Positions 9,352 through 32,700 of a stretch of 45,042 nucleotides of DNA are shown one piece after another. The position numbers and the translations under genes were made by a program. The DNA is from Pseudovibrio sp. Ad37. GTDB lineage: Bacteria > Pseudomonadota > Alphaproteobacteria > Rhizobiales > Stappiaceae. Every line of letters starts with the position of its first letter. The stretch's first letter is position 1. The DNA is taken from positions 1 to 45,042 of the forward strand of contig NZ_LMCF01000190.1 of assembly GCF_001623075.1 (NCBI RefSeq), read 5' to 3'. Below the pieces are notes generated by a model, which saw nothing but the letters and a program-made list of their open reading frames with translations, did no database searches and was not told the origin of the DNA.

Positions 9352-9386
9352 TTCACACCACTCCTCACATGAGATGGGTCAGCGGT

Positions 9387-11018: not shown

Positions 11019-14000
11019 ATGGAAGAAACCAATCCTCGCAACCAGGTTACGATGAACCCAGGTGACCTAGGCAATGTCGTGTCGCACATAGAACAAGTTG
11101 CGACGAAAAATGCTTCAAATCCAGCCTTAGTGGGGGATGGAAAGACTATCAGTTACCGCGAAATGCTTACCGCAACAGATCAACTTGCAAGCGTTCTGCA
11201 ATCAAACGCGGTTGGGCCCGAAGTTACTGTTGCAGTGTGTATGCCTCGCACTCCAGAAGCCATAATAGCGTTGCTTGCCATTCATAAAGCTGGAGGAGTT
11301 TATGTCCCGTTGGACAATAATCTCCCACGCAAACGGCTTGAGTTCATGCTTAAGGACAGCAAGGCCAGTGTCGTTGTGTGCACTGACGAAACAGCTTCTC
11401 TTGTGCAGGAGTTGTCTGCCGAGATACCGAACTCATTGCAGATCGTTAATTATTCTAAACTGGATCTAACTCCCTTCACTAGCAGCACAAACCAATCGGT
11501 TAAACCAGATCAGCTTGCTTACATCATCTACACCTCAGGCTCTACGGGACAGCCCAAGGGTGTCATGGTTGAACATCGTGGTCTGCTAAATCTAGTCTCT
11601 GAACAAGCACGCTGTTTTGGTCTGGATGAGACTTCTCGCGTCCTTCAGTTCGCATCTTTAGGTTTTGATGCGTCAATATCCGAAATTCTGGTGAGTTTGT
11701 GTTGCGGAGCTCAGCTTCATTTTGCACCCGACGGCACGCTGTTAGCCGGAGATGCATTGAAGCACATTGTTAAAGATAGAAGTATTTCTCATCTAACAGT
11801 GCCTCCTTCTCTTGCCAGTCGCATGGACCCGTTGGATTATTCGAGCCTAAAGACAGTGGTGGTCGCGGGTGAGGCAATGCCGTGGTCACTCGTGGAACGC
11901 TGGTCCGGGCACGTTAACCTGATAAATGCATACGGTCCGACTGAAAACACTGTATGCGCAACACTTTACAAGAGCAGCGGTGAGACTGGTAGTTCGGATA
12001 CAGTTCCGATAGGCAAGCCGATCTCAAACGTTGATGTCCATCTTCTCGATGATGATCTGAAACAAGTGAAAGATGGTGGGGTCGGCACCCTGTGGCTGGG
12101 TGGTATCGGGTTAGCCCGTGGATACAAGAACCAGCCAGATCTTACTGCGAAAGTATTCCGTTCCGTCCCCGGCATTGCAACTGGTCGGCTCTATAACACA
12201 GGAGACCGCGCGCGACGACTTGCAGATGGAACGCTGGAGTTCCTCGGTCGTCTGGATGAGCAGGTCAAGGTGCGTGGCTATCGTGTTGAATTGCAGGAAA
12301 TTGAGAAGTGTTTTTCTAAGCTTGAATGCATAGAGCACGCTCATGTTACCGCGACAACAGCCTACTCGAAGGACCCGGAAATCCTCGCTTATTTCACTTC
12401 GCGAGATGGTGCTTTTGTCCCTGGGGTAGAAGAGTTTAAAACGAACCTCTCCGCCTTCTTGCCAAACTATATGGTACCGAGCGCGTTTATTCACCTCGAT
12501 GAGTTCCCTCTAAATGTAAATGGCAAGATAGATCGAAAAGCACTCCCAGCTCCTGACAGATATGCCCGCGGCGCGCAGTCAAATGAGCTTCCAAGCACAG
12601 AAACGCAGCAGATTCTGACTCGCTTTTGGAAAGATCTGCTCCACGTCGAAACGGTCTTTTGTAATGACACACTTCAAACTCTGGGAGGCTCTTCCCTTGA
12701 TGCTGTTCAGTTTCTTACGCGGTGCCGTGAACGGTTTGGTCCAGTCCTCTCACTAGAAGATGTATTTACCGGAAAGAAACTCAGCGAACTCGCGGCAAAA
12801 ATCCAAACTTCAGAAGAACCAGACAGATCCGAGAGGTCTTTGACTGATTATGATCTGGAAAGAACCACCTTCCCCGTTTCTCATCAACAAAACGGAGTGT
12901 GGTTACTGGAAAAACTAACGCCGGGCTCTCTTGCATACAACGCTCAATGCCTGATCCGGATGCAGGGCAAAGTAGATGCATCCGCATTGCAGTCAGCATT
13001 GGACCTGATTGTCGAGCGTCATGAGATTTTTCGCACCACGTTTCACGAAGATGCTTCTGGTACGACCTATCAGAAAGTTCATCAACCTGTGCCTGCCCGA
13101 TTGGATCTGGTGGACCTGAACACCTCAATGGATAGCCCAGAGCTCTGGAAGGTTGTCGATCGCGAGGTCTCAAAACCCTTTGACACCAGCTGCTTGCCAT
13201 TGGCTCGCTGGGTATTGTTCAAGCTTGATGATGACTCCTCCGCACTCTTGCACATTGAACATCACCTTGTTCATGACGGTTGGAGCGCGAATATCTTTCT
13301 TTCAGAGTTCCTAGAGGCTTATGAGGCTTTCGCAGATAGAGCACTGCCCAATCTCGCTCCTGTCCCTGCCCAGTACCGGCATTACGTGGGATGGCAGCAG
13401 AGTGAAGATGCAGAAAAAACCTATGAAAAACAGCTGGCCTATTGGGAAGAGCAACTCTCAGGCGCCAACTTTACTCTCGCTCTCCCAACAGATGCCTCGC
13501 GCCCAGAAACCATGTCGTTCAAAGGCAAACAGTCCCGTTTGGAACTAACAGGGACGCTGCTTCAAAAACTGGAAGCTTACTGTAAGGCCAGTGGTCACAC
13601 AGATTATACTGTGCTTCTCGGTGTCTTCCATCTTCTACTCTCCCGCTACACAGGTCAAAAAGATCTACTCACAGGCAGCGCCGTCGCAAACCGGAAAACC
13701 AGCTTTTCAGAACATATGCTGGGCATGTTTGTGAACAGTGTCGTTATTCGCTCCGATCTGTCTAACAACCCAAGTTTTTCCGAGTATCTGAACCGACTGC
13801 GAAGCACACTCTCCAATGCTTATGACAATGAAGAAGTGCCGTTTGAACGAGTTGTCCGAGCGCTGCAGCCTGAACGGGACCTTTCCAGAAACCCCATCTT
13901 CCAAGTTGGTTTTAGCTACCACAACTCAAAGGTACCAGAGCTCGCACGAAATGATCTGAACGTATCGCTGTACGAAGCCTACAGCAACAACTCTGTCAAA

Positions 14001-17000
14001 TTTGATATTGAGGTGGTTATTCTACCTCGTTCCTCTGACAGCTCTGATATCCCGGCGCTGACTCTTTTGTGGAACTATGCAACTGACCTCTTTCAGCCTC
14101 AAACCATAGAACGCATGCAGGAAAATTTCTTCGCATTGCTGGAGCAGTGTTTATCTGAGCCGAGCCTGTCAGTTGCCAGTTTCAGCGCAGTTTGCGAAGA
14201 AGAACGAAAGCATCTGCTCTCGCTCAGCGCGCCTACCCAACCGACCAAGACCAGTGCGCCAAGCGCGGTCGTCCATAGACTGGAACAGCTCGCAAAATCC
14301 CAGCCTCAGCACACCGCCATCCTTCAGGACGAAACATCCCTTTCCTACGGTGAATTAGAAAAGCAAGCCTCATGTTTGGCCATGAAGCTACGTGTTCATG
14401 GTGTAGGTAAAGAGAAGCTGGTCGGCGTTTGTATGGAACGAAACACCGATTTGATCGTGGCACTGCTGGCAATCTGGAAAGCTGGTGGAGCATATCTTCC
14501 AATCGATCCCGCACTGCCAGAAGCGCGAATGGCCTTTATTCTTCAGGACAGTGCGCCAGATTTGATCTTATGCTGCCGTGCAACGCACCAATCTCTTGCA
14601 AGTTTGCCAGACAATCAAAATCTCTATGCTTTTGAAGATCTTGCAGAAACCACAGACCATTCAGTGCCGATGGGTCCTACGCTGGAGCCTGTCTGCGCTG
14701 AGGATCTTGCCTATGTCATCTACACTTCAGGATCTACCGGGCAACCCAAAGGCGTTCAAATTGAACATCGGCACATTGCCCGATTGATTGACACCTGCCA
14801 GCCACTGTTCAACTTCACATCTTCTGATGTCTGGTCCTTCTTCCATTCCTACGCATTTGACTTTTCGATTTGGGAGATATGGGGAGCTCTTTCTACGGGC
14901 GGCTCTGCTGCAATTGTGCCAGAGGATGTGCGCCGTGATCCCGCTCAGTTCTACGCTTCGTGCTGCAAACAAGGGGTAACAATTCTCAGTCAAACACCCT
15001 CTGCCTTTCGTGCTTTCATGGCGGCACAGGCCGAAGCTGTTACGCCTCATGCATTGCGCTCAGTGGTGTTTGGTGGTGAAGCCCTTGCAACGCCGATGCT
15101 CAAGAACTGGTTTGACAATCCTGTTAATGCGGGCTGTCAGATGGTGAACATGTACGGGATCACAGAAACCACCGTACATGTTTCCTACAAAGAGCTCACA
15201 GCTGAGAACATTCATCACTATTCAGAAGGCAGTCCCATTGGTCGCCAGTTGGATGACCTGAGCCTTCATGTATTGGATGATAACCTCATGCCTGTGCCCT
15301 TCGGTGCAGCCGGAGAGTTATATGTCGGTGGAGCTGGCGTTGCACGAGGTTACCTTAACCGTCCTGCCTTAAACGCGGAGCGGTTCATTGAGAACCCGTT
15401 TCTACCCGGTGATCGCCTGTATAGAACAGGGGATCTGGCTAGGTATGCAACTGACGGCACCTTGTTGTATCTGGGCCGCAACGACAGTCAGGTGAAAGTA
15501 CGCGGATACCGCATCGAACTGGGCGAAGTCGAAGCCGCTCTCGCCACCCACGATGAGCTTCAGCACGTTGTTGTCACCTGCAGAAATGTGGCCACAAGCG
15601 ATGCCCTGTTGGTCGCCTACTATGTGCCCGTGGCACAAAGAACAGGCTTGGATTCCAGCGCGCTACATTCTTTTGCAGCTAATCTTCTGCCAAACTACAT
15701 GGTGCCCTCAGTATTCGTAGAGTTAGAGGCGCTACCGCTGACCCAAAACGGTAAACTGGACCACATAGCGCTTGAAAGATACAACGTTACACAGACCAAA
15801 AGCAAAACCTTCGTAAGTCCAGAGGGGGACCGCGAAACGCTATTAGCTCAGGTTTGGGCGGATATCTTAAAGGTCAAACAGGTTGGCCGCTTTGACAACT
15901 TTTTTGAACTGGGTGGTCACTCACTCTTAGCTGCAAGAGTGCAGGCCTCCATGCATGCCAAAGGCTTCCATCTGGCAGCGGTGGATTTGCTACGCAGGCC
16001 AGTGCTCAAGGATCTTGCGCAACACATTCAATCCAGCGTTCAACAGAGCGCAACTGCTGGAAAAACCGGCACCAACCAAAGCCCAATGTCTATCTCCGGC
16101 CTTTCGCAAATGCAGATCGAGCATGTTGCAGGCTCGGTGCCCGGTGGCATCCAAAATGTAAAAGACATTTACCCTCTGACACCATTACAGGAAGGCATTT
16201 ACTTCCATCATCGGCTTTCAGAACAAGGGGACCCTTATCTGCTCTGGAGCCTGATGGCATTTGAGACCGCTGAAGCATTGCAGAGCTATCTTGCGGCCCT
16301 ACAGAAGGTTATGGATCGCCACGACATTTTGCGCACAGTGTTTGTGTCCGAAGGGCTGGAACAGCCACTTCAGGTTGTTCTGAAAAATGTTAAGCTGAAA
16401 ACCTGTGAGTTGGATACTGATAGCCTCAAAGGTACTGGAGATGTCGTTGCAAAGCTTCAGGCCTTATTTGATCCCCGAATAACAAAAGTTGATCTTCGCG
16501 AACCTTCTCTTCTTCGCGTTCATTATTGCTATGATGCTGACAACAAACGCTGGTTGGCTCTTAAACTGTTCCACCACATTATCGACGACAACACATCACT
16601 CAAGCAGCTGAACGCTGAGGTCAAAGCATTCATGATGGAGCAAGGTGAGGCGTTGCCTGCTCCTGTTCAGTTTGGAAAATATGTTGCGTTCCAACAGGAG
16701 CAGACCCGCAAGGAGGACACACGCAACTTCTTTCATGACCTGTTCAGTGGATTTGAAAGCGCCACAGCGCCCTTTGGCCTTACAGGTGAGCATGTTCATG
16801 GCGCAGATCTGGATACTGATAGCACCAGTACCGACAGCGCGCTCACTGCGGACATCAGAGAACTTGCCAGCCGATTAGGGGTGAGTACAGCTTCAGTATT
16901 TCACTTCGTCTGGGCTCTGGTCATGGCAAGGTGTTCTGGTCAGGAAGATATTTGCTTTGCCACAGTTCTCCTTGGACGATTGCAAGGGCTTGAAAATGCT

Positions 17001-19319
17001 GAGCGGATACTGGGTCCCTTCATCAACACCCTCCCCTTGCGCATCCAGCTTGGTGACAGGGATTGGGTGAGCGCCCTTCGTGCTGTTCACCAGATACTTA
17101 TCGATCTGATGCACCATGAGTTCTCCTCGCTAACCGATGCGATTGAAGCCAGTGGGGTGGACCGTACTACACCACTCATCACTTCGCTGATTAACTTTCG
17201 CCATGCCGAGCTTCTGTCGGATGGGTCTCAAGGTACCTCTCACCGCGACTTACCAGGCGCCACGTACCTCACCGGCCATTATGGCACCAGTTACCCGTTT
17301 AACCTGACAATTGATGACTTCGGGGGAACATTCAAAGTCCAGACACAGGCCCCACATGGCTGCAATGCATCTGCGCTTTTAAGGATGACACTGGAGGGGC
17401 TGCAACACCTCACAAAAATCTATCCAGAAGCTAAAACGACACCAACACATCAACTTGTTGGTTTGGATCGGGATCTGGAGACCAAGCTCCTTGAATTTGC
17501 AGCAGGGGCAGAGTTTTTAGAGAGCTCAAACACCCTCCATGGCGGCTTTGAAGCCGCTGCTGTAGCGCACGGTGGTCAGGTTGCCTTGATCAGTGAAGAA
17601 CTCCAACTCACTTATGCTCAGGTGAACAGCCGTGCCAACAAGCTTGCCAGATACCTGGTTTCCAAAGGCGTTGGATATCAAGACCGTGTTGCGGTGTGCA
17701 TGCTAAAAACCGCTGATGCCGTCATCGCGCTCCTCGCCATCCTGAAAACCGGCGCAGCCTATGTCCCAATTGATGCAACCTATCCCTCCGAGCGGATCAC
17801 TTACCTGATTGAAGACAGCGCTCCGGCTCTGGTTCTGTGTGATGATCTAACCCTGCCTCAAATGGCAGAGATGGGTGTTTCTGAGAAGCTGATCAATCTT
17901 GATCAGCCTGACCCATGCTGGCAGGCGCTTGGCGAAGACAACTTAAATGCATCGGTTTCCCGCGAAGACACAGCTTATGTGATCTACACCTCTGGCACCA
18001 CGGGCAAACCTAAGGGCGTGATGGTACCGCACAAAGGTCCGGCTAATCTCGTTGCATGGTTCCAACAGCAAGGACAAATCACGCAGCAAGACAGAGTTCT
18101 CCTGTCCACCTCTCTTACCTTTGACATCTCAGTGGTTGAGATATTCGCCAGCCTTACCTGTGGTGCAAGCCTAATTGTGGCAGACCGCTCCCGCTTACTG
18201 GAAGGTTCGTATCTGGTTGAACTCATAGGTGAGTATCAGGTCACAGTCTGTCAGTTTGTCCCTTCTTTGTTGGGCTTCTTCCTGTCTTGTGAAGGGGCTG
18301 ACACTTGCTCGAGCTTGCGTTCGGTGCTGTGCGGTGGTGAGGCCTTTTCTTCCTATCTGGCAAAGCGCTGTTTCGAAGTACTGGGGCCCGTACGCCTGCA
18401 GAACCTTTATGGACCTACTGAGGCAAGCATATATTGCACGGCGCAAGAGGTTGAACATCACGCAGATTATCCGCCAGTTGTTCCGATAGGTCGCCCCATC
18501 GCGGGCATGACTATGCATGTTCTAGATCAGCATCTGGCACTTGCTGCTCCCGGTGTGGCGGGGGATCTTTATGTTGCTGGGCCAGGTGTTGCCACCGGAT
18601 ACCTGAACCGCCCTGAACTCACAGCAGAACGTTTTATTGATAGCCCGTTCAAAGCTGGAGAGCGCCTTTATAAGACTGGTGATGTTGGGCGCTATCTGAA
18701 AGATGGCACCATCGAGTATTTGGGGCGAGATGACTTCCAGATCAAAGTGCGTGGCTATCGGATTGAGCCCGGCGAGATCGTGCAGGCCTTGTGTCAGAGT
18801 GAAGGCGTGTCCAATGCTGTAGTCGTGACCCATCAGGATGAGGCCAAAGACACGCAGTTGGTAGCTTATGTATGCCCTGATAAAGGCGCTGGCTCGCTAA
18901 ATCCCGCTGCATTGCGTACCATCCTCGCCAGTCAATTACCCGAGTACATGGTGCCGGGGCTCTATGTGCAGCTGGATACCTTACCTTTGACGTCTAACGG
19001 CAAAATAGACCGTAGCCAGCTTCCTGAGCCCGATAGCGGCAGTGTTCAGCCGATCACCAGTTACGTGCCCCCTGAAACCCCGATGGAAGAGGAGCTTGCG
19101 CGTATCTGGGCCGAGGTGCTGCAGCTGGAGCGTGTCGGCATACGCGACAATTTCTTCGACATTGGCGGACATTCTCTTCGCGCCACACGCATTATTGCCC
19201 AAATGCATGATGTGTTGGGAATGGAAGTGCCGCTGCGCATCTTTTTCGAACGCCCCACCATTGAGCAGACACTCGATTACATTTTTGAAGAGCTGGAAGC
19301 AGCCGAAGAATATTCCTGA
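11019..19319 (+). CDS. pppA: NRPS PppA: A(Tyr)-T-C(ureido)-A(Thr)-T-C-A(Gly)-T
   Basis: A 2766-residue NRPS that starts the chain. Domains in rough residue order: A1 20-525, T1 with Ser559 in LGGSS, C1 620-1050, A2 1080-1580, T2 Ser1635, C2 1715-2140, A3 2175-2670, T3 Ser2719. Specificity codes read by eye are DASTVAAVCK (Tyr), DFWSVGMVHK (Thr) and DIVQLGLIYK (near the Gly code DILQLGLIWK). C1 has EHHLVHDG at 747-754, a signature I recall for ureido-forming C domains. C2 starts YPLTPLQEGIYFHH and has HHIIDDN (1852-1858), a divergent type that may dehydrate Thr. There is no TE, so the chain passes to PppB. ATG 11019 has no clear ribosome site; ATG 11052 follows AGG and may be the real start. 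The symbol comes from recall of the pseudovibriamide cluster. Confidence 0.9.
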   Translation: MEETNPRNQVTMNPGDLGNVVSHIEQVATKNASNPALVGDGKTISYREMLTATDQLASVLQSNAVGPEVTVAVCMPRTPEAIIALLAIHKAGGVYVPLDNNLPRKRLEFMLKDSKASVVVCTDETASLVQELSAEIPNSLQIVNYSKLDLTPFTSSTNQSVKPDQLAYIIYTSGSTGQPKGVMVEHRGLLNLVSEQARCFGLDETSRVLQFASLGFDASISEILVSLCCGAQLHFAPDGTLLAGDALKHIVKDRSISHLTVPPSLASRMDPLDYSSLKTVVVAGEAMPWSLVERWSGHVNLINAYGPTENTVCATLYKSSGETGSSDTVPIGKPISNVDVHLLDDDLKQVKDGGVGTLWLGGIGLARGYKNQPDLTAKVFRSVPGIATGRLYNTGDRARRLADGTLEFLGRLDEQVKVRGYRVELQEIEKCFSKLECIEHAHVTATTAYSKDPEILAYFTSRDGAFVPGVEEFKTNLSAFLPNYMVPSAFIHLDEFPLNVNGKIDRKALPAPDRYARGAQSNELPSTETQQILTRFWKDLLHVETVFCNDTLQTLGGSSLDAVQFLTRCRERFGPVLSLEDVFTGKKLSELAAKIQTSEEPDRSERSLTDYDLERTTFPVSHQQNGVWLLEKLTPGSLAYNAQCLIRMQGKVDASALQSALDLIVERHEIFRTTFHEDASGTTYQKVHQPVPARLDLVDLNTSMDSPELWKVVDREVSKPFDTSCLPLARWVLFKLDDDSSALLHIEHHLVHDGWSANIFLSEFLEAYEAFADRALPNLAPVPAQYRHYVGWQQSEDAEKTYEKQLAYWEEQLSGANFTLALPTDASRPETMSFKGKQSRLELTGTLLQKLEAYCKASGHTDYTVLLGVFHLLLSRYTGQKDLLTGSAVANRKTSFSEHMLGMFVNSVVIRSDLSNNPSFSEYLNRLRSTLSNAYDNEEVPFERVVRALQPERDLSRNPIFQVGFSYHNSKVPELARNDLNVSLYEAYSNNSVKFDIEVVILPRSSDSSDIPALTLLWNYATDLFQPQTIERMQENFFALLEQCLSEPSLSVASFSAVCEEERKHLLSLSAPTQPTKTSAPSAVVHRLEQLAKSQPQHTAILQDETSLSYGELEKQASCLAMKLRVHGVGKEKLVGVCMERNTDLIVALLAIWKAGGAYLPIDPALPEARMAFILQDSAPDLILCCRATHQSLASLPDNQNLYAFEDLAETTDHSVPMGPTLEPVCAEDLAYVIYTSGSTGQPKGVQIEHRHIARLIDTCQPLFNFTSSDVWSFFHSYAFDFSIWEIWGALSTGGSAAIVPEDVRRDPAQFYASCCKQGVTILSQTPSAFRAFMAAQAEAVTPHALRSVVFGGEALATPMLKNWFDNPVNAGCQMVNMYGITETTVHVSYKELTAENIHHYSEGSPIGRQLDDLSLHVLDDNLMPVPFGAAGELYVGGAGVARGYLNRPALNAERFIENPFLPGDRLYRTGDLARYATDGTLLYLGRNDSQVKVRGYRIELGEVEAALATHDELQHVVVTCRNVATSDALLVAYYVPVAQRTGLDSSALHSFAANLLPNYMVPSVFVELEALPLTQNGKLDHIALERYNVTQTKSKTFVSPEGDRETLLAQVWADILKVKQVGRFDNFFELGGHSLLAARVQASMHAKGFHLAAVDLLRRPVLKDLAQHIQSSVQQSATAGKTGTNQSPMSISGLSQMQIEHVAGSVPGGIQNVKDIYPLTPLQEGIYFHHRLSEQGDPYLLWSLMAFETAEALQSYLAALQKVMDRHDILRTVFVSEGLEQPLQVVLKNVKLKTCELDTDSLKGTGDVVAKLQALFDPRITKVDLREPSLLRVHYCYDADNKRWLALKLFHHIIDDNTSLKQLNAEVKAFMMEQGEALPAPVQFGKYVAFQQEQTRKEDTRNFFHDLFSGFESATAPFGLTGEHVHGADLDTDSTSTDSALTADIRELASRLGVSTASVFHFVWALVMARCSGQEDICFATVLLGRLQGLENAERILGPFINTLPLRIQLGDRDWVSALRAVHQILIDLMHHEFSSLTDAIEASGVDRTTPLITSLINFRHAELLSDGSQGTSHRDLPGATYLTGHYGTSYPFNLTIDDFGGTFKVQTQAPHGCNASALLRMTLEGLQHLTKIYPEAKTTPTHQLVGLDRDLETKLLEFAAGAEFLESSNTLHGGFEAAAVAHGGQVALISEELQLTYAQVNSRANKLARYLVSKGVGYQDRVAVCMLKTADAVIALLAILKTGAAYVPIDATYPSERITYLIEDSAPALVLCDDLTLPQMAEMGVSEKLINLDQPDPCWQALGEDNLNASVSREDTAYVIYTSGTTGKPKGVMVPHKGPANLVAWFQQQGQITQQDRVLLSTSLTFDISVVEIFASLTCGASLIVADRSRLLEGSYLVELIGEYQVTVCQFVPSLLGFFLSCEGADTCSSLRSVLCGGEAFSSYLAKRCFEVLGPVRLQNLYGPTEASIYCTAQEVEHHADYPPVVPIGRPIAGMTMHVLDQHLALAAPGVAGDLYVAGPGVATGYLNRPELTAERFIDSPFKAGERLYKTGDVGRYLKDGTIEYLGRDDFQIKVRGYRIEPGEIVQALCQSEGVSNAVVVTHQDEAKDTQLVAYVCPDKGAGSLNPAALRTILASQLPEYMVPGLYVQLDTLPLTSNGKIDRSQLPEPDSGSVQPITSYVPPETPMEEELARIWAEVLQLERVGIRDNFFDIGGHSLRATRIIAQMHDVLGMEVPLRIFFERPTIEQTLDYIFEELEAAEEYS

Positions 19320-19345
19320 CGCAGAAGCAGATTGTCAGCGTCATT

Positions 19346-19351
19346 GGGAGG
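19346..19351 (+). promoter_or_regulatory. Ribosome binding site that fixes the pppB start
   Basis: GGGAGG four bases before the ATG at 19356. The open frame extends to a TTG at 19332, but this site lies inside that extension, so 19356 is the better start. Confidence 0.7.
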
Positions 19352-19355
19352 ACTC

Positions 19356-22300
19356 ATGCAGGACGAATTAAACAAGCGCACACGTCGCTCTCTTACACCA
19401 GAGCAGCTTTTGAAGATGCGTCAACGCAGCGCGCTCAAGGCAGCCCCGCGTGATCAAGCCCCCCTGCCTCTGTCTTTTGCGCAAGAGAGGCTCTGGTTCC
19501 TCTCTCGCATGGAAGGCATCAATTCAGCCTATCATTTGACCCTTGGCTTGCGCCTTCGTGGCGAGTTAAACGTGACATACCTGCAAAGCGCGCTAGACCA
19601 GCTGATAGACCGTCATGAAGGCCTGCGTACAGTCATTACAGGTGATAACGGGGAGCTGTCTCAAAGCTTCTCACCCCGTACCTGTGGCTTTCCCCTGCGC
19701 CTACTCGAAATTGAGGTTGATAGCGAGCCAGAAACAGAGATTTGCCGTTTGGCAGAAGAAGAGAGCACTCGGCCGTTCGATCTGCTGCACGGACCGTTGG
19801 CTCGCTGTTGTCTTATCCGGATCAGCGAGACGCATCACGTGTTGCTGCTGGCATTGCATCACATCATTTCCGATGGGTGGTCCAACGGCCTCCTCCTCAA
19901 AGAGTTGGGTGAAAACTACTCTCATCTGGTAGAAGCAGGAACACCAATCGAGCGGGAAACACCCGATCTTGCATACGCCGATTATGCCGTATGGCAGAAA
20001 CAGCGGGAGCAGCTCAAAAAATTTGATGAGCAGAAGACTTATTGGAAAGAAACGCTTGCCGGTGCCCCCGAGCGTTTGCTGTTGCCAACGGACCGGCGGC
20101 GACCTGCTCAGCAAAATTTTGCGGGTGAACTTCTGCCGTTGGAGTTAGGCCCTGAGTTGAGTGAAAAGGTGCGCCAATTGGCGCGCAGCTCGGGCTCCAC
20201 CCCTTATTTGTTACTCATGAGCGCCTATGCAATCGTGCTTTCCCGTTTGTCTGGACAAGAGGATCTTGTCATTGGCACGCCATCTGCCAACCGTGTCCGC
20301 AAAGAGCTGGAAGAGATGGTGGGCCTGTTCGTGAACACACAGGCTTTGCGCTTTGATTTGAGCGAAAATCCCACTGTAAGCCAGCTGCTCACCCAGATGC
20401 GAGGCATTTTCCTCGACAGTCAGGATAATCAGTCTCTCCCTTTCGAGCAGGTGGTGGAAGCGCTCAGTCCTCAACGGTCCTTATCCTACACACCACTTTT
20501 CCAGGTCATGTTCGCATGGCAAAACACAGAGGGTGGAACAGCCCATTTCGCTGGTTTAGAATTGGACACTGTACAGCTGCCTCGCACCGCCTCCCAGTTC
20601 GATATTACACTTGAGCTGGTGGACAATGGCTCAAACATCTCCGGCGGCCTGGAATACGCGACAGCTCTGTTTGACCGCCAAACCATAGTTCGGCTTGCAG
20701 GTTATGTGTTACAGGCAGTGAAAGCCATTTGCGCAGACCCGGAACAGGCAGTCGCCGAACTGCCCCTTATGGATGCAGCCACACATACAGCAACATTAGA
20801 AGCTTCCCGTCTTGCATCCAAAGAAGTACCAGCAGAAAGCGCCATCCATCTGCCGTTTGAAGAGGCCGCTGCGGCCCACGGCGATCGGGTTGCATTGATC
20901 AGCAATGAGATCGAACTCACTTATGCTCAACTGAACAGTCAGGCCAACAAGCTCGCCAGATACCTGCGCTCTAACGGCGTTGCAAATCAGGACCGGATTG
21001 CGGTGTGCATGCGCAAATCCGCAGACGCAGTTATCGCCTTGCTTGCTGTCCTGAAAACCGGCGCTGCCTACATTCCAATTGATGCGAACTATCCCCCTGA
21101 GCGGACCAACACGCTTTTACAAGATTGCCAGCCCAAAACCATTCTGGCCGATATGCGTGGTCAGGAGCAGTTGGATCAACTCACCAAGCTGTCTGCCCAG
21201 ACTATTAATATTGAGAGGAGAAGAGATGAATGGGCTTCTCAGGATGAACGCGATTTAGATGTTCAAGTCGCGCCTGACCAACTGGCCTATATCATCTACA
21301 CGTCCGGATCGACAGGACAACCCAAAGGCGTCATGGTCGATCATCGTGCGATCTGGACTGTCAGGGACGCATGGAGCAACCTTTACGACTTCAAAGAACC
21401 ACCATGTGTTTTGCAGATGGCGAGTCTTTCGTTTGATGTTTTCACCGCAGACATTGTCCGCGCCCTCACTTTTGGAGGCAAGCTTGTCCTTGTGGATCAA
21501 GACGAGCTGGTAGACAGTACCGCCCTTCTCGCAAAAATTGAGCAGCATCAGATAACATTCGGTGATTTTGTTCCAGCAGTTTTGGACAATCTCACAGCCC
21601 ACTTGCATACAATCAGAAAACACTCAACCAGCCTCAAAACTGTCGTGTGCGGTTCTGATCGTTGGTCCTCCAAAGGTGCTTGCGAAGCACGAAAGGTCTT
21701 CGGGCCTACAGCGCACATCATTCATGCTTACGGCTTAACCGAAACCGCCATTGATTGCCTCGCACTCAGCTTATCCGAGGAGATTTCTCCGAACACTACA
21801 CTGAGCCTCGGCACTGCACTCAAGAATTATCAGGTCTTGCTTTTGGACACTTCCAGCCAACCTGTCCCCGAAGGGGTTGTTGGCGAAATCTGTATTGCCG
21901 GGTCTGGTTTGGCGCGCGGCTATTGGAACGCACCTGAACTCACGAAGCAAAAGTTTACCGATGTATCAATTGGTGATGGCCTGAGGATCTTCAAGACAGG
22001 AGATTTAGGCCGTCAGCTACGTGATGGGACAATCGAGTTTTTAGGGCGGAATGACCGGCAGGCAAAACTCCGCGGTTTTCGCGTCGAGCTTGGTGAGGTT
22101 GAAGCTGCTCTTGAAGCTGATGAACGCGTCACATCAGCCACTTGTGTTGTAAGACCTCACACCAGCGGCGAACAGCTTCTCGCCTATGTCGTCCTTGCGG
22201 ATAATGAGGGAACTGAAGTTCCTCAGGCACTGAAAGCGTTTCTAAGCCATAAACTCCCACACTTCATGGTGCCTGCCGGGATCACCGTCATCGACAAGAT

Positions 22301-25300
22301 ACCACTCACTCCCAATGGCAAAGTCGATCTGAAAGCCCTCCCGGACTTTGATCTGTCAACGCTCTCACAAACAAAGTTTGAGCCTCCACGAGCAGGCAGA
22401 GAAACGGAACTAAGCCAGATCTGGTGCGATGTACTCGGTGTCGCCAGTATTGGGCGCAACGATAACTTTTTTGCTCTGGGCGGCCATTCTCTGCTTGCAG
22501 TACGGTTAGCTCAACGTATCCGTGAAGCAACTGCCGTCGAAGTCCCGGCAACAATTGTTTTCACTGCCCCAACGCTGGCCTCTCTCGCCGAGGCAATAGA
22601 CAGCCAGACACGCACCGCAAAAAGACAGATTGAGCCCGCAGATAGAACACAGAACCTGCCGCTTTCCTCTTCTCAACAACGCTTATGGTATCTGGCAGAA
22701 ATGGAGGGCCAGAGCGAAGCCTACCATATGCCATTGGTTCTGGAACTGAAGGGTAAGTTGGACGCCCCAGCGCTGTCTCAAGCAGTTGAGAAAATCGTTG
22801 CACGGCACGAGGCTTTGCGGACGTGTTTCAGCCAGAAGAACGGGACCGCCTATCAGGACATTCAGCTAGTAAATGTTTGGCGGATGGGGGCGATTACGCA
22901 AGTGCCTGCGAATGAGACCTTACAGGATCATGTCGCCCGTTTGATCTCTGTACCCTTTGACTTGGAGGCGGGTCCGCTGTTTCGTGCGGATCTTTTGCAC
23001 TGTGACGAGAACCATCATGTGCTGGTGATTGTTATGCACCACAGCATTTCAGATGCCTGGTCCATGGGTATCTTCAGCAGGGAACTGAGTGTGCTTTATT
23101 CTGCTCTGTCCCAACATCAGGATACCAAGCTCCCCGATTTGAAAATCCAATATGCAGACTTCGCGCAGTGGCAGAGCAATGAGTTGAAGAATGGCTCATG
23201 GGAACAGCAAAAGCACTATTGGAAGTCCAGGCTCAAAGATACACCTGTGCTGCTGGAGCTGCCAACCGATCATCCAAGACCAAAGCGTCAATCCTTCAAA
23301 GGCACCGCAGTCCCGTTGAGTCTGGAGTCATCCTTAACTCAGAAGATGAAGGAGCTTGCTGCATCCAATCGGATCACGTTGTTTACCAGTCTTCTTGGGA
23401 TGTGGGCGCTGACACTGGCCAAGCTTTCAGGACAAAAAGATGTCGTTGTTGGCAGTCCGGTCGCCAACAGAGATCATTCACAACTCGACAACATGATTGG
23501 TTTTTTCGCCAACACACTGGCCTTGCGGGTGGAAGCGAATGAAAGCCTTACCTTGAAAGAGTACCTGTCGCAGGTGCAGACCACTGTTTTAGAAGCGCAG
23601 CAAAATCAGGACCTTCCCTTCGAACAGGTGATTGAGCATATCAACCCGCCGCGAAGCCTTGCGCATTCCCCCTTGTTTCAGGTGATGTTTGCCTGGGAGG
23701 GAGAGAACAATGACCGGTTCGAGCTTCCCGGCCTTTCTGTTGATGTACTCCCTCACCACCATGGCGGTGCCAAGTTTGATCTGCTGTTGTCGCTTCAGGA
23801 AAGAGACGGCCAGCTGAAAGGCGCGATCGAGTTTGCAAGCGACCTGTTTGAGGCAAAGACCGTCACTCGCATCGCAAAGTACTTTGAGCATGTTCTCACT
23901 CAAATGGTTGCAGACGTGGGTACGGAGGTCCGTTCAATAAGTCTGTTGAGCGAAGAGGAGCGAACGCTGGCGCTGGATGCATGGCAACAGCCTTCTGTGC
24001 CTTACTCTGAGTTTGAATGCATCAGCAGACGCATTGAAGAACACGCCGCTTGCACACCAACAGCCACAGCGCTGATCTTCGGCCAGACAAAACTCAGCTA
24101 CGACGAATTAAACACACACGCTAATCGGTTTGCCAATGCACTTGTGCAGGAAGGCATTCGCTCACAAGCAAACATCGCACTATGTGTAGACCGATCACCG
24201 GAAATGATCATAGCACTGCTGGGTATCTTAAAGGCAGGTGCTACCGTTGTGCCGCTGGATCCAGCTTACCCTGAGGCCCGCCATCAGGCCATCTTGCAGG
24301 ATGTTAAGCCTGATCTCGTCATAACTACAGATGCGTTAAAGCCCAAACTGCCAGTCGAATTTGCGAGTGCAACAGTCACTCTTGCAGAGCTTGCACAAAA
24401 GAGCCAACATATTTCGGCGGAGAATACGGGGCTTACCCCTGCCCCTCTTGACCCGGCCTATGTCCTTTACACCTCCGGGTCTACAGGCAAACCAAAAGGC
24501 GTGGTCCAGACCCACCGCACCCTGCGCAATCTGGTCAACTGGCAACTTAAACAGGTTCCGTCAGAAAGAGCCCCGTCGCGCATTCTCCAATTTGCCTCCC
24601 TCAACTTTGATGTGGCCTTTCAGGAGATTTTCTGCACGTTGTGTCAGGGCGCAAGCCTTGCGCTGCTGAGTGATGACCAGCGCAAAGACATCGGCAACCT
24701 TGCAGGCTTCATCAAGTCCAACGGCATTGAGCGCGCCCACTTGCCCTTTGCGGTACTGCAACAGATGGCAGGTCTTTTTGAGGCTAAACAGCTGCCGGAT
24801 GGCCCTGCTTGTGAAGTGATCACCGCTGGCGAGGCACTGCTGGTCAATGACAGCCTGCGGCAACTCCTTAAAGCACTGGGAGGGCGCTATTTTTACAACC
24901 AATACGGCCCCACTGAAACCCATGTGGTGACCCAGCACGTTCTGGATTGTGCGCGCATGGAGGATTGGCCAGCCTCCCCGCCCATCGGCAAGCCCATGGA
25001 GAACACCAGTGTGTTTCTTCTGGATGAGAGCATGCGACCTGTGCCTCCCGGAACGATTGGAGAGCTGTATGTGTGCGGAGACAATCTGGCTTTGGGTTAC
25101 TTTGGTCAGGAAGAACTAACCGCAGAACGATTTGTTACGCACTCGTTCGCCTCTCAAGGCGCGCAACGCTTTTATCGTACCGGTGATTTGGCGGCCTACC
25201 TGCCAGATGGCAGCCTTGCCTTCCATGGCCGTGCAGATGATCAGGTGAAATTCCGTGGGTTCCGGATTGAGCCGATGGAGATCACGAACTGCATCTTACA

Positions 25301-28300
25301 GATGGATGGCATTCTGGAAGTCGCCGTGATTTTGGACAAGCAAGCAGACCCCGAGCATGCCCGGCTCGTCTGTTACTTCGTCGGCACAAGACCCGCTGGC
25401 ACATTGCGGGCAGAGCTGAAAGCTCACTTGCCGGACTACATGATCCCAACGGACTGGATGCCTCTGGAAGAGTTGCCCATCACCCGGAACGGCAAGCTGG
25501 ATCGAAGAGCTTTACCATCTCCTGTCCGCACAGGGAGTACAGACTATGAAGCACCACTGCCGGGGCTTGAAGCAGATATTGCTCAGATTTGGCAGGTGGT
25601 GCTCAAGGTGGAACAGGTTGGCCGCACCGACAACTTCTTTGACCTTGGCGGGCATTCTTTGCTGGCGACCCGCCTGATCCATGCAATAAACAAAGAACTG
25701 TCACTCGGCCTGTCCCTCAGTGATCTTATTGAAAACCCGACACTTGTTGATCTGGCTGCCTCGGCCAGTACCAACACCGGCAAGGCAGAACACTCAGCGC
25801 TACAAATCCATGCAGATGAAGCAAACCGGTATGAACCATTTCCACTCACGGACATCCAGCAGGCTTACTGGGTTGGCAGGGATGACAGTTTAGGGCTGGG
25901 CGGCGTCAGCGCTCATGCTTATGAGGAAATTGAGATCCCTCACCTTGATCTTGAGAGATTCAACGCTGCTTTGAACAGGCTGATCCTTCGGCACGATATG
26001 CTGCGAGCTGTTTTTGCCAGCGATGGAACCCAGCGCATATTGGAGGATGTTCCTGAATACATCATTCAAACTGACGATGCCCGTGGTCGCAGTGAACGTG
26101 TCGTGGAGCGCATCATCTCAAGAAACCGGGAGGCCATGTCGCATCAGGTTCTGGATGCGGGAACATGGCCGCTTTTCGAGTTCCGGGCCGTACAGCTTGA
26201 GAATGAGATAACTCGGCTACACATTTCCATGGATGCGTTAATCGTGGATGCAGCCAGCAGCCAGATTTTCTCACGCGAACTGGCTACCTTCTATGAGGAC
26301 CCGCAGGCAGAACTTCCGAGGATTGAAATCACGTTCCGCGACTATGTGGTGCAGGAACTGGCGATGCGGGATGACTCCCGCTATGCGATTTCTCTGAAGT
26401 ACTGGCAAGACCGCTTGTCGGCTCTCGCTGCAGCACCGGAACTGCCGCTTGCAAAACAGCCAGAGAGCATCAGCAATCCCCGGTTCACACGCAGACAACT
26501 TGTTTTGGAAGAGGCCAAATGGTCAACGATCAAAGCAAAGGCACGAAAGTATGGTGTCACCCCCTCCGGCTGTCTGCTGACAGCCTTTGCGCGGGTGCTG
26601 GCCAAATGGAGCCAGTCGTCCCGGTTCACACTCAGCTTACCTGTGTTCAATCGCCAACCGCTCCACCCCCATATCAACCGTCTCATCGGCGACTTCACGT
26701 CTATTGTTTTGCTGGAAGTTGGCTCGGACCCGGCAAAGAGCTTTTCTGACAATGCAAAGGCAGTCCAGCGCCAACTCTGGAAGGATATGGATCATAGCGA
26801 AGTCAGTGGTGTGCGGGTTCTGCGGGAACTCACGCGCCTGCGTGGTGAGCAGCAAACGGGAATGCCCATCGTCTTCAACAGCACCCTAGTGGAGATGATC
26901 CCGGATCAGGAGGAAATTACGCTTTCCTCCGCATTGGACGCTCAAAATGTACATACCATCACCCAAACACCACAGGTGTGGCTGGATCACACCATCATGG
27001 AGATTGATGGTGAGCTACATTTCAACTGGGACAGCATAGACGAGCTGTTTCCAGAGGGCATGATGCAGGACATGTTTGATGCCTATTGTGCTCTGCTTGA
27101 AGTGTTGGTCACCTCTGATCACTGGCAACAGCATGTCCCCCAGCACTTTCCTGTCTGGAACGCTAAGGGCGCACTGTCACAACATTGGCCATTGATACAT
27201 GAGCTGTTTGAAGAACAAGCGCTCAAAACACCAACTGCTCCTGCCGTGATCTGCGGTGATCTGGTTTTGTCCTACAGCAAAGTCCGCCAGCGTGCCCGTA
27301 ATCTTGCCACTCTCCTTCAACAGAAGGGCCTGGCCAAAGGTGATCTGGTTGCCATTCAGATGCGGACCGGTTGGGAACAGAGTGTGGCTGTCCTCGCCAT
27401 TCTATATGCAGGGGGCGCATATCTTCCAATCGACCCGGATCTGCCGGCCAATCGCATTGAAGGAATTTTGCAACGGACCGAGTGCAGGCTCGTATGCGTC
27501 AAGACAAGCCAGAGTGACACACACAAGGGGCTTCCTGCGCTTGCTCAAACGGTTGATGTGGGCGGGGAACTGGATGCCTTAAGCGATGAGAAGCTGCAGG
27601 TTGTTGATACGCAACCAGATGACCTTGCCTACGTGATCTTCACTTCAGGTTCCACCGGGGAACCCAAGGGAGTCATGATCGATCATCGCGGAGCAGTTAA
27701 TACGCTCCTCGACATCAACCGCCGCCTAAACGTGCAGCCAGAAGATCGTGTGTTTGCCATTTCTGCATTGGGCTTTGATCTCTCAGTCTATGATATTTTT
27801 GGATTATTGGCTGCGGGTGGCTCTGTTGTCCTGCCCAATGAGGCTGAGGCAAAAGACCCTGCCCATTGGCTGGAGTGCCTCATTCGTCACAAGGTCACGA
27901 TCTGGAATTCTGCACCAGCTTTGCTTGGTGTACTGACAGATTATGCTCAAAGTGATCGCAAAAGTCTCGGCTCGCATTTGCGTGAAGTGATGTTGTCTGG
28001 AGACTGGATTCCACTTTCACTGCCTGAGCGGGTGCGTGCACTCGCACCGAACGCGCATGTCTTGTCTCTGGGTGGAGCAACTGAAGCCTCCATTTGGTCC
28101 ATCTGCTTCCCTATCCAGGATATCGCGCCGCATTGGAAGAGCATCCCCTACGGCAAAGCGCTCGACAACCAGCAATTTTATGTTCTGAATGACGCGCTGG
28201 CCCCTCGGCCCTGCTGGGTTACTGGTGAGCTGTACATCGGTGGCATTGGACTTGCGAAAGGTTATTGGCGGGACGAAGAACAAACCAACCATCGTTTCAT

Positions 28301-29756
28301 CACCCACCCCAAAACCGGCGAACGCTTGTACCGTACCGGCGATTTGGGGCGCTATATGCCAGATGGAAACATAGAGTTTCTTGGGCGCGTGGATACTCAG
28401 GTCAAGGTGCAAGGTTTCCGCATCGAGCTGGGTGAGATCGAAACTATGCTCAATGCCCATAAAGACGTAAAAGCCTCAGTCTTTAAGATGTTTGGCGAGG
28501 CACAAGGCGATAAGCAACTCGTTGGCTATGTGGTTCCGGAAGAGCGCGGTGTCGAGATTGACGCTCTTCTGGATCATCTACGCGCCCACCTGCCCCATTA
28601 CATGGTTCCCTCTGCTCTCCTTGAGATTGAGCGCCTCCCGATTTCTGCAAACGGCAAAATTGATCGGAAGCAACTGCCGGAACCACGCAGTGAGATACAA
28701 GCTGAGCTAAGCTTCGAACCGCAAGGGGAACAGGAAGAGAAAATCCACGAGATTATCTCTCAGATCTTGAAACTGGATCACGTCACACCCGAGGATAATT
28801 TACTGCAGCTGGGAGCGACCTCTATCGATATCACGCGCATTTCAAACGCGTTGTCGAGCACGCTCTCGTTCCGCCCGCCACTTGCAAAGTTCATGGGCAG
28901 CCCAAGCCTTGCAACGCTCCTTGCCATGTATCGGGAGCAGTTTGGTCAGGTGGCGGAAGAAACGCAACCTGCTGCAACAAATTCCGCAATTGCCACTCTT
29001 GAGGACCCGCTGCAACGACAGTCTTTCAAAGACCGTAATGTTGGGTTGCGCAAATTTGATCAGCAACATGGCGTGCATCAATTGGAAAACTCCGGCTCTC
29101 CTGAGTTCGACGAATTTGACGCCTACCGGTCGGTGCGCCAGTTCATTTTGGATCCTGTCCCCAAAACCCGATTAGAGGCCCTCCTCTCTGCATTACGGCG
29201 TAATCAGAACCAAGAGGCACCAAAGCATTTGTTTGCAAGCGCCGGGGGGCTCTATCCGATGCAAACCTACCTTTACATCAAACCCGGTCGTGTGTTGGGC
29301 CTGGAAGGTGGGGCCTATTATTACGATCCTGAAAAACACGCTCTGATTTCGACAGCAGATGGCAAGGCACTGACCCCGGATGCCTATGATTATTTCGTGA
29401 ACCGGCCAGTTTTTGAAGAGGCTGCCTTCGCGCTTTTCTTCATCGCTGAGCGGCAGGCAATCGAGCCCCTTTATGGCGAAATGAGCGAGCAATTCTGGTT
29501 GATCGAAACAGGTGCAATGGCACAGCTGTTGACCATGCGTGCCCATGAAGCAGGGTTAGGCCTGTGCGGCATCGGCTCCATAGATGAGACGGTTTTGACG
29601 GAGCTGTTCCGGTTGGGGCCTACTCATAAGCTCATCTATTCCATGATCGGCGGCACACCCACCACTGAGCAAAACCGGCAACACACCATAGAGACCTTCG
29701 GGACTGCGCTTGCCTCCTCAATGGATGAAGATGAAATGGAGGAGTTTGAAATATGA
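19356..29756 (+). CDS. pppB: NRPS PppB: C-A(Arg)-T-C-A(Pro-like)-T-Cy-A(Cys)-T-Ox
   Basis: A 3466-residue NRPS adding residues four to six. Domains: C1 38-470 (HHIISDG 168-174), A1 498-990, T1 Ser1045, C2 1100-1530 (HHSISDA 1228-1234), A2 1555-2050, T2 Ser2101, Cy 2162-2590, A3 2615-3100, T3 Ser3156 in LGATS, Ox 3215-3450. Codes: DVADVGAIDK (Arg), DVQHIAQVVK (nearest Pro), DLYNMSLIWK (Cys). The third condensation-type domain is a cyclisation domain: it has DALIVDAAS (DxxxxDxxS, 2293-2301) in place of HHxxxDG. The C-terminal domain is a McbC/nitroreductase-like flavin oxidase (YRSVRQF, ASAGGLYPMQTYLY, ETGAMAQLLTMRAHEAGLG), so thiazoline should be oxidised to thiazole. The acidic tail DEDEMEEFEI may dock onto PppC. 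It lies 36 nt after pppA and overlaps pppC by four bases. Confidence 0.92.
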   Translation: MQDELNKRTRRSLTPEQLLKMRQRSALKAAPRDQAPLPLSFAQERLWFLSRMEGINSAYHLTLGLRLRGELNVTYLQSALDQLIDRHEGLRTVITGDNGELSQSFSPRTCGFPLRLLEIEVDSEPETEICRLAEEESTRPFDLLHGPLARCCLIRISETHHVLLLALHHIISDGWSNGLLLKELGENYSHLVEAGTPIERETPDLAYADYAVWQKQREQLKKFDEQKTYWKETLAGAPERLLLPTDRRRPAQQNFAGELLPLELGPELSEKVRQLARSSGSTPYLLLMSAYAIVLSRLSGQEDLVIGTPSANRVRKELEEMVGLFVNTQALRFDLSENPTVSQLLTQMRGIFLDSQDNQSLPFEQVVEALSPQRSLSYTPLFQVMFAWQNTEGGTAHFAGLELDTVQLPRTASQFDITLELVDNGSNISGGLEYATALFDRQTIVRLAGYVLQAVKAICADPEQAVAELPLMDAATHTATLEASRLASKEVPAESAIHLPFEEAAAAHGDRVALISNEIELTYAQLNSQANKLARYLRSNGVANQDRIAVCMRKSADAVIALLAVLKTGAAYIPIDANYPPERTNTLLQDCQPKTILADMRGQEQLDQLTKLSAQTINIERRRDEWASQDERDLDVQVAPDQLAYIIYTSGSTGQPKGVMVDHRAIWTVRDAWSNLYDFKEPPCVLQMASLSFDVFTADIVRALTFGGKLVLVDQDELVDSTALLAKIEQHQITFGDFVPAVLDNLTAHLHTIRKHSTSLKTVVCGSDRWSSKGACEARKVFGPTAHIIHAYGLTETAIDCLALSLSEEISPNTTLSLGTALKNYQVLLLDTSSQPVPEGVVGEICIAGSGLARGYWNAPELTKQKFTDVSIGDGLRIFKTGDLGRQLRDGTIEFLGRNDRQAKLRGFRVELGEVEAALEADERVTSATCVVRPHTSGEQLLAYVVLADNEGTEVPQALKAFLSHKLPHFMVPAGITVIDKIPLTPNGKVDLKALPDFDLSTLSQTKFEPPRAGRETELSQIWCDVLGVASIGRNDNFFALGGHSLLAVRLAQRIREATAVEVPATIVFTAPTLASLAEAIDSQTRTAKRQIEPADRTQNLPLSSSQQRLWYLAEMEGQSEAYHMPLVLELKGKLDAPALSQAVEKIVARHEALRTCFSQKNGTAYQDIQLVNVWRMGAITQVPANETLQDHVARLISVPFDLEAGPLFRADLLHCDENHHVLVIVMHHSISDAWSMGIFSRELSVLYSALSQHQDTKLPDLKIQYADFAQWQSNELKNGSWEQQKHYWKSRLKDTPVLLELPTDHPRPKRQSFKGTAVPLSLESSLTQKMKELAASNRITLFTSLLGMWALTLAKLSGQKDVVVGSPVANRDHSQLDNMIGFFANTLALRVEANESLTLKEYLSQVQTTVLEAQQNQDLPFEQVIEHINPPRSLAHSPLFQVMFAWEGENNDRFELPGLSVDVLPHHHGGAKFDLLLSLQERDGQLKGAIEFASDLFEAKTVTRIAKYFEHVLTQMVADVGTEVRSISLLSEEERTLALDAWQQPSVPYSEFECISRRIEEHAACTPTATALIFGQTKLSYDELNTHANRFANALVQEGIRSQANIALCVDRSPEMIIALLGILKAGATVVPLDPAYPEARHQAILQDVKPDLVITTDALKPKLPVEFASATVTLAELAQKSQHISAENTGLTPAPLDPAYVLYTSGSTGKPKGVVQTHRTLRNLVNWQLKQVPSERAPSRILQFASLNFDVAFQEIFCTLCQGASLALLSDDQRKDIGNLAGFIKSNGIERAHLPFAVLQQMAGLFEAKQLPDGPACEVITAGEALLVNDSLRQLLKALGGRYFYNQYGPTETHVVTQHVLDCARMEDWPASPPIGKPMENTSVFLLDESMRPVPPGTIGELYVCGDNLALGYFGQEELTAERFVTHSFASQGAQRFYRTGDLAAYLPDGSLAFHGRADDQVKFRGFRIEPMEITNCILQMDGILEVAVILDKQADPEHARLVCYFVGTRPAGTLRAELKAHLPDYMIPTDWMPLEELPITRNGKLDRRALPSPVRTGSTDYEAPLPGLEADIAQIWQVVLKVEQVGRTDNFFDLGGHSLLATRLIHAINKELSLGLSLSDLIENPTLVDLAASASTNTGKAEHSALQIHADEANRYEPFPLTDIQQAYWVGRDDSLGLGGVSAHAYEEIEIPHLDLERFNAALNRLILRHDMLRAVFASDGTQRILEDVPEYIIQTDDARGRSERVVERIISRNREAMSHQVLDAGTWPLFEFRAVQLENEITRLHISMDALIVDAASSQIFSRELATFYEDPQAELPRIEITFRDYVVQELAMRDDSRYAISLKYWQDRLSALAAAPELPLAKQPESISNPRFTRRQLVLEEAKWSTIKAKARKYGVTPSGCLLTAFARVLAKWSQSSRFTLSLPVFNRQPLHPHINRLIGDFTSIVLLEVGSDPAKSFSDNAKAVQRQLWKDMDHSEVSGVRVLRELTRLRGEQQTGMPIVFNSTLVEMIPDQEEITLSSALDAQNVHTITQTPQVWLDHTIMEIDGELHFNWDSIDELFPEGMMQDMFDAYCALLEVLVTSDHWQQHVPQHFPVWNAKGALSQHWPLIHELFEEQALKTPTAPAVICGDLVLSYSKVRQRARNLATLLQQKGLAKGDLVAIQMRTGWEQSVAVLAILYAGGAYLPIDPDLPANRIEGILQRTECRLVCVKTSQSDTHKGLPALAQTVDVGGELDALSDEKLQVVDTQPDDLAYVIFTSGSTGEPKGVMIDHRGAVNTLLDINRRLNVQPEDRVFAISALGFDLSVYDIFGLLAAGGSVVLPNEAEAKDPAHWLECLIRHKVTIWNSAPALLGVLTDYAQSDRKSLGSHLREVMLSGDWIPLSLPERVRALAPNAHVLSLGGATEASIWSICFPIQDIAPHWKSIPYGKALDNQQFYVLNDALAPRPCWVTGELYIGGIGLAKGYWRDEEQTNHRFITHPKTGERLYRTGDLGRYMPDGNIEFLGRVDTQVKVQGFRIELGEIETMLNAHKDVKASVFKMFGEAQGDKQLVGYVVPEERGVEIDALLDHLRAHLPHYMVPSALLEIERLPISANGKIDRKQLPEPRSEIQAELSFEPQGEQEEKIHEIISQILKLDHVTPEDNLLQLGATSIDITRISNALSSTLSFRPPLAKFMGSPSLATLLAMYREQFGQVAEETQPAATNSAIATLEDPLQRQSFKDRNVGLRKFDQQHGVHQLENSGSPEFDEFDAYRSVRQFILDPVPKTRLEALLSALRRNQNQEAPKHLFASAGGLYPMQTYLYIKPGRVLGLEGGAYYYDPEKHALISTADGKALTPDAYDYFVNRPVFEEAAFALFFIAERQAIEPLYGEMSEQFWLIETGAMAQLLTMRAHEAGLGLCGIGSIDETVLTELFRLGPTHKLIYSMIGGTPTTEQNRQHTIETFGTALASSMDEDEMEEFEI

Positions 29757-32700
29757 AAGCTCAACAACTGCTTGATTATTTTGCCCAGCACAATGTGAGC
29801 CTCCAGACTGATGGAGATATGCTTCGTTTCAAAGCGCCAAAGGGGTTTCTGGGAGCTGATCTTGCCGCCGCTCTGAAAGCAGAAAAGTCAGAGCTGATTC
29901 ATCTGCTGCAACAACATGCAGCAGAAAGGCAGGTTGAAGGAGTACCTCTTTCACCATCACAGCGCCATTTGTGGATCTTGCATCAATTGGAGCCAGAGAG
30001 TCCGTTCTACAATAACCCCGTAGCGCTCAAAGTTTCCGGTATGCTCGAGCTGGAAACTCTGCACCGCGCCGTAAATGCTGTTGTTGCGCGTCACGACATG
30101 CTCCGAGCGAGGTTCAGCACAAGCAACGGGACGCCTACACAAACTTTTCCAGAACCTGCTGACCTGCCCATTGACCTCTTGAACCTTTGCCATCTGAATG
30201 ACGAAAAACAGGCGGAGGCGCTCAATGAACGTGTCCAGCATGAGGCAAGCCAACCGTTTGATTTGGAGCGCGGCCCGCTCGTGCGCTCAAGTTACATAAA
30301 ACTTGCAGATGATGAACATGTATGGCTCTTCAACCTGCACCACATTGCCGCTGACGGCTGGTCCATCGGTTTGTTTTTCAACGAAGTTACCGCTCATTAC
30401 AACGCTTATCATAAGGGCACCTCGCCCGACCTTCCCCCTCTGTCCATGCAGTACGCCGATTATGTGACTCATCATAAAAACGAGTGCAATTCGTCCAGAG
30501 AGCAGCAACAGATCCAGTATTGGACTGACAAACTTGAGGACCTGCCAGACTTACTTGAGCTACCCACGGATTTCCCTCGGCCGGCAGAACAGACACATAA
30601 CGGTTCTCACTTTGAATTCACGCTTGATGACAACTTGAGTGAACGCTTGCGACTTTTCTGCCAAAGACGCTCAATCACGCCATTTGCGCTCTATCTGGCC
30701 GGATTTGCCGCCCTCTTATGGCGCTACAGCAAACAGGAAGGCATCTGCATTGGCACCTCTTTTGCCAACCGCCATCTGGCAGAGCTGGAGCCTCTGATCG
30801 GGCACTTCATCAACACGCTCGCACTCAAAACGCATATCACGGCCACAAGCACCTTTGCTGAGCTGGTAACTCAGTCACAAACGGTCATTTTGGAAGCGCT
30901 GGACAACCAGGATTTGCCTTTTGAGAAAGTGGTCGAAGCTGTAAATCCGGAACGTTCACCAGCCCACTCGCCGCTGTTTCAGGTCATGCTGATTTATCAG
31001 AACCTGCCCGGTGGATCGGCTCAAATGGATGGTGTTGAAATCGAAACACTGGCAACAGACAGCCAGACTGCAAAGTTCGATATCACGCTGGAAGTATTTG
31101 AACGAGGCCGCACGTTTAGCCTAGGCTTTGAGTACAACAAAGATCTGTTTACGCAATCCCGCATCGCGCGAATGGCCAGTCACCTCACCTACTTCCTCTC
31201 AAACGCTGTCAAAGCGCCGGAAGAGCATCTCGGTGTGATTGATTACATCACGCCCGAAGAAAGAGGTCTGTTAACACAAGTATGGCCTCACGGAGCGCAG
31301 CATGCGTTAAGTTCCACATGCATTCACAAAGCATTTGAGGCTCAATGCGAGCATTCACCCAAAGCACCTGCACTCGTGTACGGCGAAGACGTGTGGAGCT
31401 ACGCCAGTCTCAACACCAAAGCAAATCAACTTGCCCGCTACCTGAAGGAACTTGGTGTTATTGAGGGAAGTCCAGTGGGCCTGCTCTTTGAGCGGTCCAG
31501 CGAGTTGGTGATAGCCATGCTTGCCGTGCTCAAGGCGGGTGGTCACTTCATTCCTTTGGAGCCCGGACTGCCAATCAAGCGTCTTGAGTTTATGGTGCAA
31601 GACAGCCAGCCCGATCTGATCCTCACCCATCCAGAGGCCTCGGAAGCGGCTACCAAACTCAAGAGCAGTTGTGAAGTTGAAGTGCTGTCGCTGAATACAG
31701 AGCAACGAGCTAAAATTATTCAATCCTGTGGCACTGATAATTTGCCAGCTAACGGTATAAGCGCCGAGGGTCTTGCCTATATCATCTACACGTCAGGAAC
31801 CACCGGCGTTCCCAAAGGCACCAAGCTGACCCACAAGGGCTTGGTGAACCTCGTGGAGTGGACCAAGCGCACATTTCCAGGCAAGCCCGGTGATGCTCTG
31901 TTGCAGAAGACGCCGATGGGATTTGATGCCGCGATCTGGGAGTTCTTCTGGCCGTTATGCTCAGGTGCATCGTTGGTGCTGGCTTCGCCTCATGCTCACA
32001 CCTCTCCTGCAGAGCTGGCAAAGAGCTATGCATCTCATGGTATCACCACCATCCAGTTCGTCCCCGCGATGTTAGATCTGTTTCTTGATGAACCGGAGGC
32101 TGCCCAATGCGGCCAACTGCGCAATGTGTTTTGTGGTGGTGGTGAGTTGAGCGGTGAACTTATGCGCAAGTTCTCCAGCAAGCTGCCGTGGGCAACACTG
32201 CACAATGTTTACGGTCCGACTGAATGCACCGTAGACAGCACCTGGCATAGTGTGAAGCCGGAAGATCTGGACAAACCTTCAGCCCCCATCGGCAAGCCCA
32301 TATCGAACGTAAGGACTTACCTGCTTGATGAGAGCATGTCGATTGTCCCGGTTGGACTGGTTGGTGAGCTTTACATCGGTGGTGCCGGCCTCTCCTCTGG
32401 CTATCTTAACGCCCCGCAGCAACAAGCATCAGCGTTCATTACCAGCCCATTCAACTCAAGTGAACAGCTCTACCGTACCGGCGATCTTGCCTATTATGAT
32501 GAACAAGGTCAGCTGGTTTTTGCAGGCCGCAAAGACAACCAGATCAAGCTGAATGGCTTTCGCATCGAGCTGTCAGAGATTGAAGCTGTCCTCCGACAAT
32601 ATCCTGTATGCCGCAGCTGTGCCGCGCTCGTGGCTCAGCAAGAGGGTGGTACTGCTCAACTGGCACTTTGCTACACCACATCAGACGGTTCTCTCCTCGT

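Follow-up and report, generated by a model that had tools for sequence, protein, structure and literature searches.

An EHHxxHDG-marked lineage of NRPS condensation domains and its probable ureido-forming member in Pseudovibrio PppA

The first condensation domain (C1) of the nonribosomal peptide synthetase (NRPS) PppA belongs to a distinct lineage of C domains marked by the motif EHHxxHDG and very probably makes a ureido bond by the mechanism set out below. The motif, the lineage and the domain architecture around C1 are directly observed. In ureido synthetases, the first aminoacyl thioester gains a carbon from bicarbonate, and this carbon bridges it to the amine of the following residue, with reversal of the chain; EHHxxHDG is presumably tied to this chemistry, a connection drawn both in the initial annotation and here. 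To this we add a phylogeny computed with the motif masked, a wider signature of group-specific residues, and compact and free-standing members of the lineage.

The ppp assembly line and its surroundings

The window, that is, the whole stretch of 45,042 nucleotides analysed here, corresponds to positions 1-45042 of contig C190; the genome measures 5.9 Mb. PppA-PppD (Table 1) are the products of four large forward-strand genes that together span 11019-43098; these names come from the initial annotation and agree with those of the pseudovibriamide cluster. The second C-family domain of PppA (16161-17348) reads FHHIIDDN at the core and scores low. Although the polyketide module of PppD has KS and KR domains, a Pfam scan of 33883-43098 found no acyltransferase domain.

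Table 1. Features of the ppp assembly line and adjoining genes in the window
Feature	Position	Strand	Evidence or remark
PppA, 2766 aa; A-T-C start; three A, two C-family and three T domains	11019..19319	+	
Initiating A1-T1 unit of PppA, without upstream C domain	11019..12860	+	Pfam, motif anchoring
C1, condensation domain, proposed ureido-link maker	12861..14219	+	Pfam PF00668, 344.9 bits
EHHLVHDG active-site motif of C1	13257..13280	+	residues 747-754
PppB; three C-family, three A and three T domains, nitroreductase-type oxidase	19332..29756	+	
PppC; docking domain, C, A, T, thioesterase	29753..33874	+	
PppD (NRPS-PKS); A, then C, A, KS, KR, thioesterase; three T domains in total	33883..43098	+	
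4'-phosphopantetheinyl transferase	43045..43812	-	Pfam ACPS
Thioesterase-domain protein, probably type II	43819..44604	-	Pfam Thioesterase

Adjoining pppA is a divergent set of genes on the reverse strand (6060-10631) coding for an MFS transporter, a GSCFA protein, a TauD-type dioxygenase and two proteins without a Pfam match. TauD was considered as a conserved partner of the motif and rejected, since the TauD-like protein of the window shares only 30 to 34% identity with the TauD proteins that adjoin the motif genes of Streptomyces; a comparison of seven flanking proteins of the window with DUF6875 gave no match. The left end of the contig (317-4117) carries a resolvase, an IS240-type transposase and a pretoxin-HINT/EndoU nuclease gene, which suggests a mobile or plasmid setting.

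The motif of C1 and the lineage it marks

The initial annotation had assigned EHHLVHDG to the first C domain of PppA and had considered it peculiar to that domain within the window. Both points stand: C1 carries it, and EHHxxHDG, taken here as the core motif of ureido-forming C domains, is missing from the six further C-family domains of the window. The predicted structure of C1 (mean pLDDT 87.3) is a C-domain fold, with Txo2 and LgrA as its best matches among solved structures, and the HHxxxDG core common to ordinary LCL domains is intact. These features would also suit an LCL domain of the ordinary kind, forming a plain amide, in which EHHxxHDG is a neutral variant of the lineage, a reading that we consider quite unlikely for the reasons that follow.

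In a tree of 94 C-family rows, all 12 EHHxxHDG rows lie on one side of a single branch (SH-aLRT 100). As a guard against circularity, the motif and four residues on each side of it were masked, and 18 divergent rows were left out. In the resulting 76-row tree the 12 rows still form one group (UFBoot/SH-aLRT 100/99), as do 13 of 13 once the domain from genome G551 is added (100/100) and 15 of 15 with two free-standing Streptomyces proteins (100/99). The group takes in domains from Pseudovibrio, from further Pseudomonadota (G389, G448, G551 and Rhizobium lusitanum), from Gloeothece (Cyanobacteriota) and from Streptomyces. The C domains of PppB and PppC fall outside the group, so that C1 is set apart from these partners in the assembly line; the trees do not include the second C-family domain of PppA, which the search recovered too partially. 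When the alignment and phylogeny proposed in the initial annotation are carried through, then, C1 sits with the EHHxxHDG domains and does not cluster with ordinary LCL domains. The tree is unrooted and its deep branches are weak, with the group branching among other C domains, a placement compatible with the LCL reading; branching within the group is also mostly weakly supported.

Against a neutral variant speaks the behaviour of the two distinguishing residues, the Glu and the His of the motif, which across distant taxa occur both together or not at all (17 domains with both, 0 with a single one and 97 with neither; the sample was motif-enriched). Further against it are the support for the group with the motif masked and residues elsewhere in the domain that are specific to it. 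Trp731 is present in 12/12 motif rows and 0/82 other domains, Leu726 in 11/12 and 0/82, His968 in 12/12 and 4/82, Asn990 in 11/12 and about 4/82, and Ser992 in 11/12 and 8/82; a short insert around Val1000/Pro1003 of the motif rows faces a gap in each of the 82 other domains of the same alignment. Overall similarity is a poorer guide. In a full-domain tblastn search of plasmids, two Gloeothece motif carriers rank highest by bits (338 and 337) among the 40 matches listed of 910, and the Streptomyces motif carriers (H29 and H45, 289 and 281 bits) fall below ordinary cyanobacterial C domains from Leptolyngbya and Nostoc (H23 and H21, 296 and 293 bits). Similarity alone thus fails to separate the group, and the tree does so.

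The initiating position and the proposed ureido step

PppA opens with A1-T1, with no C domain ahead of it, so that C1 directly follows an initiating A-T unit, as the initial annotation had it, and the A-T-C order at the start of the line places it to act on the initiating aminoacyl unit. The same arrangement recurs: of 11 loci inspected, nine (the window, G004, two from Gloeothece, three from Streptomyces, G389 and G448) have the motif domain after an A domain that opens the protein. This recurrence could mean that the motif is a mark of first condensations in A-T-initiated lines, where the donor is one unacylated aminoacyl thioester, and not of ureido chemistry as such. We hold this to be very improbable. 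PppD offers a control within the window: it too starts with an initiating A unit followed by C, yet that C domain reads AHHIILDG and lacks the motif. Conversely, the remaining two loci, from Rhizobium lusitanum and Streptomyces nigrescens, have the motif domain with no A domain upstream in the same frame, and the two free-standing Streptomyces C proteins likewise bear the motif without an A-led start. In G551 the domain upstream of the motif domain is a T domain; the pattern used did not match an A signature there.

Returning to ureido formation by C1, the specificity of A1 bears on its first substrate. By motif anchoring, the pocket residues of A1 are DASTVAAVC, which we take to be a Tyr code (with the code numbering likewise assumed), and the match makes Tyr-CO-residue two the likely link, as the initial annotation had predicted. 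Among its many matches, A1 hits 4d4g (ApnA A1; E 2.4e-93), presumably the initiating A domain of the synthetase of anabaenopeptin, a ureido peptide. In the mechanism that we propose, A1 would load Tyr onto T1, and C1 would add one carbon from bicarbonate or CO2 at the Tyr amine. The carbon would probably enter by N-carboxylation, followed by closure on the thioester to give an N-carboxyanhydride-like intermediate, which the amine of the T2-bound residue would then open. The outcome would be Tyr-NH-CO-NH-residue two, in which Tyr is reversed with its carboxylate free, and the rest of PppA through PppC would extend the chain onward. For PppA C1, Tyr, bicarbonate, the anhydride step and a role of Glu747 and His752 are inferred, in part from ureido synthetases in general. 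The parts played by these two residues are guesses, because no motif-bearing solved structure turned up: among the group profile's 71 matches to solved structures, the five alignments inspected contain no EHHxxHDG chain, and one of these five, 8z0q ('Special condensation domain'), lacks both the HH and the motif.

Motif carriers in and beyond Pseudovibrio

Considering its own genome and 15 congeners, C1 is present in six (its own, G002, G004, G005, G006 and G009), and all six keep EHHLVHDG, down to 72% identity in G004; C1 is 99% identical in Pseudovibrio sp. Alg231-02, 95% in P. axinellae DSM 24994 and 81% in P. denitrificans JCM 12308. In the records of the last (L010) and of G005, the pppA frame is broken inside C1, 5' of the motif. 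The product of PppABCD is presumably pseudovibriamide, and the window cluster agrees with the pseudovibriamide synthetase in genus, gene order and domain make-up; we found no feature that sets the window copy apart from it. The ureido link of the pseudovibriamides and the statement on EHHxxHDG have reportedly been published.

The view of the motif as a marine trait, also advanced in the initial annotation, did not survive: it is present on Gloeothece plasmids, one of them from rice-field fresh water, and on Streptomyces plasmids. The Gloeothece NRPSs, which are candidate ureido synthetases, resemble the anabaenopeptin type (AptA/ApnA) in their first protein, which reads A-T-C*-A-T (C* being the motif-bearing domain) with a last C-family domain, taken for an epimerase; they differ in the third NRPS gene, which has a C-family domain at its end. 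Their C* reads VEHHMVHDGW and is about 37% identical to PppA C1. A ureido link between two amino acids is made in the systems of syringolin (SylC), chitinimide and the bulbiferamides.

A DNA pattern for EHHxxHDGW matched 2/398, 2/120 and 2/369 genomes, with G389 counted in all three sets and the genome of the window in the set of 398. The pattern read backwards, as a control, gave one match in the 398 genomes (G328), and pattern matches therefore need a check at the domain level, which was made. All three genomes found by the pattern alone (G389, G448 and G551) carry C domains of the group with a T domain upstream. Their synthetases are compact, encoded by single genes of about 1870 to 1950 aa (L045, 4404-10016, in G389; L052/L053 in G448; L072, from 6561, in G551), with C* between two carrier domains, and are possibly makers of ureido dipeptides. 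A Pfam scan of the G389 protein found no thioesterase.

On the Streptomyces plasmids NZ_CP108735.1 and NZ_CP107797.1, the C domain with EHHLIHDG is a free-standing protein (L073, 3608-5029, 473 residues; L074, 3662-5032, 456 residues). Encoded beside it are an AMP-binding protein and a separate carrier protein, along with a small NRPS and another C protein, and PKS-like genes are present too. An M1 metallopeptidase also lies near the free-standing protein in NBC_00557, and self-protection against a peptidase inhibitor is a possible role for it. At three other Streptomyces plasmid loci (L042, L061 and L066) the C* synthetase is led by an A domain, and the similar surroundings include TauD-type dioxygenases and a DUF6875 protein; two of the three also adjoin a gene annotated lysA.

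We lean slightly towards regarding all these carriers as a single ancient ureido lineage that spans Pseudomonadota, Cyanobacteriota and Actinomycetota. It would have the wider signature of Trp731, His968, the Asn990/Ser992 stretch and the short insert, and would include unexplored forms, namely the two-module A-T-C*-A-T synthetases and the free-standing C* proteins with discrete carrier proteins. Chain-reversing ureido bonds occur in protease-inhibiting and signalling peptides, and a reliable marker for the C domains that make them would allow this bond to be predicted from sequence. The extra signature residues, together with the compact and free-standing members, may provide simpler enzymes for studying the bicarbonate step, which to our knowledge is still poorly understood.
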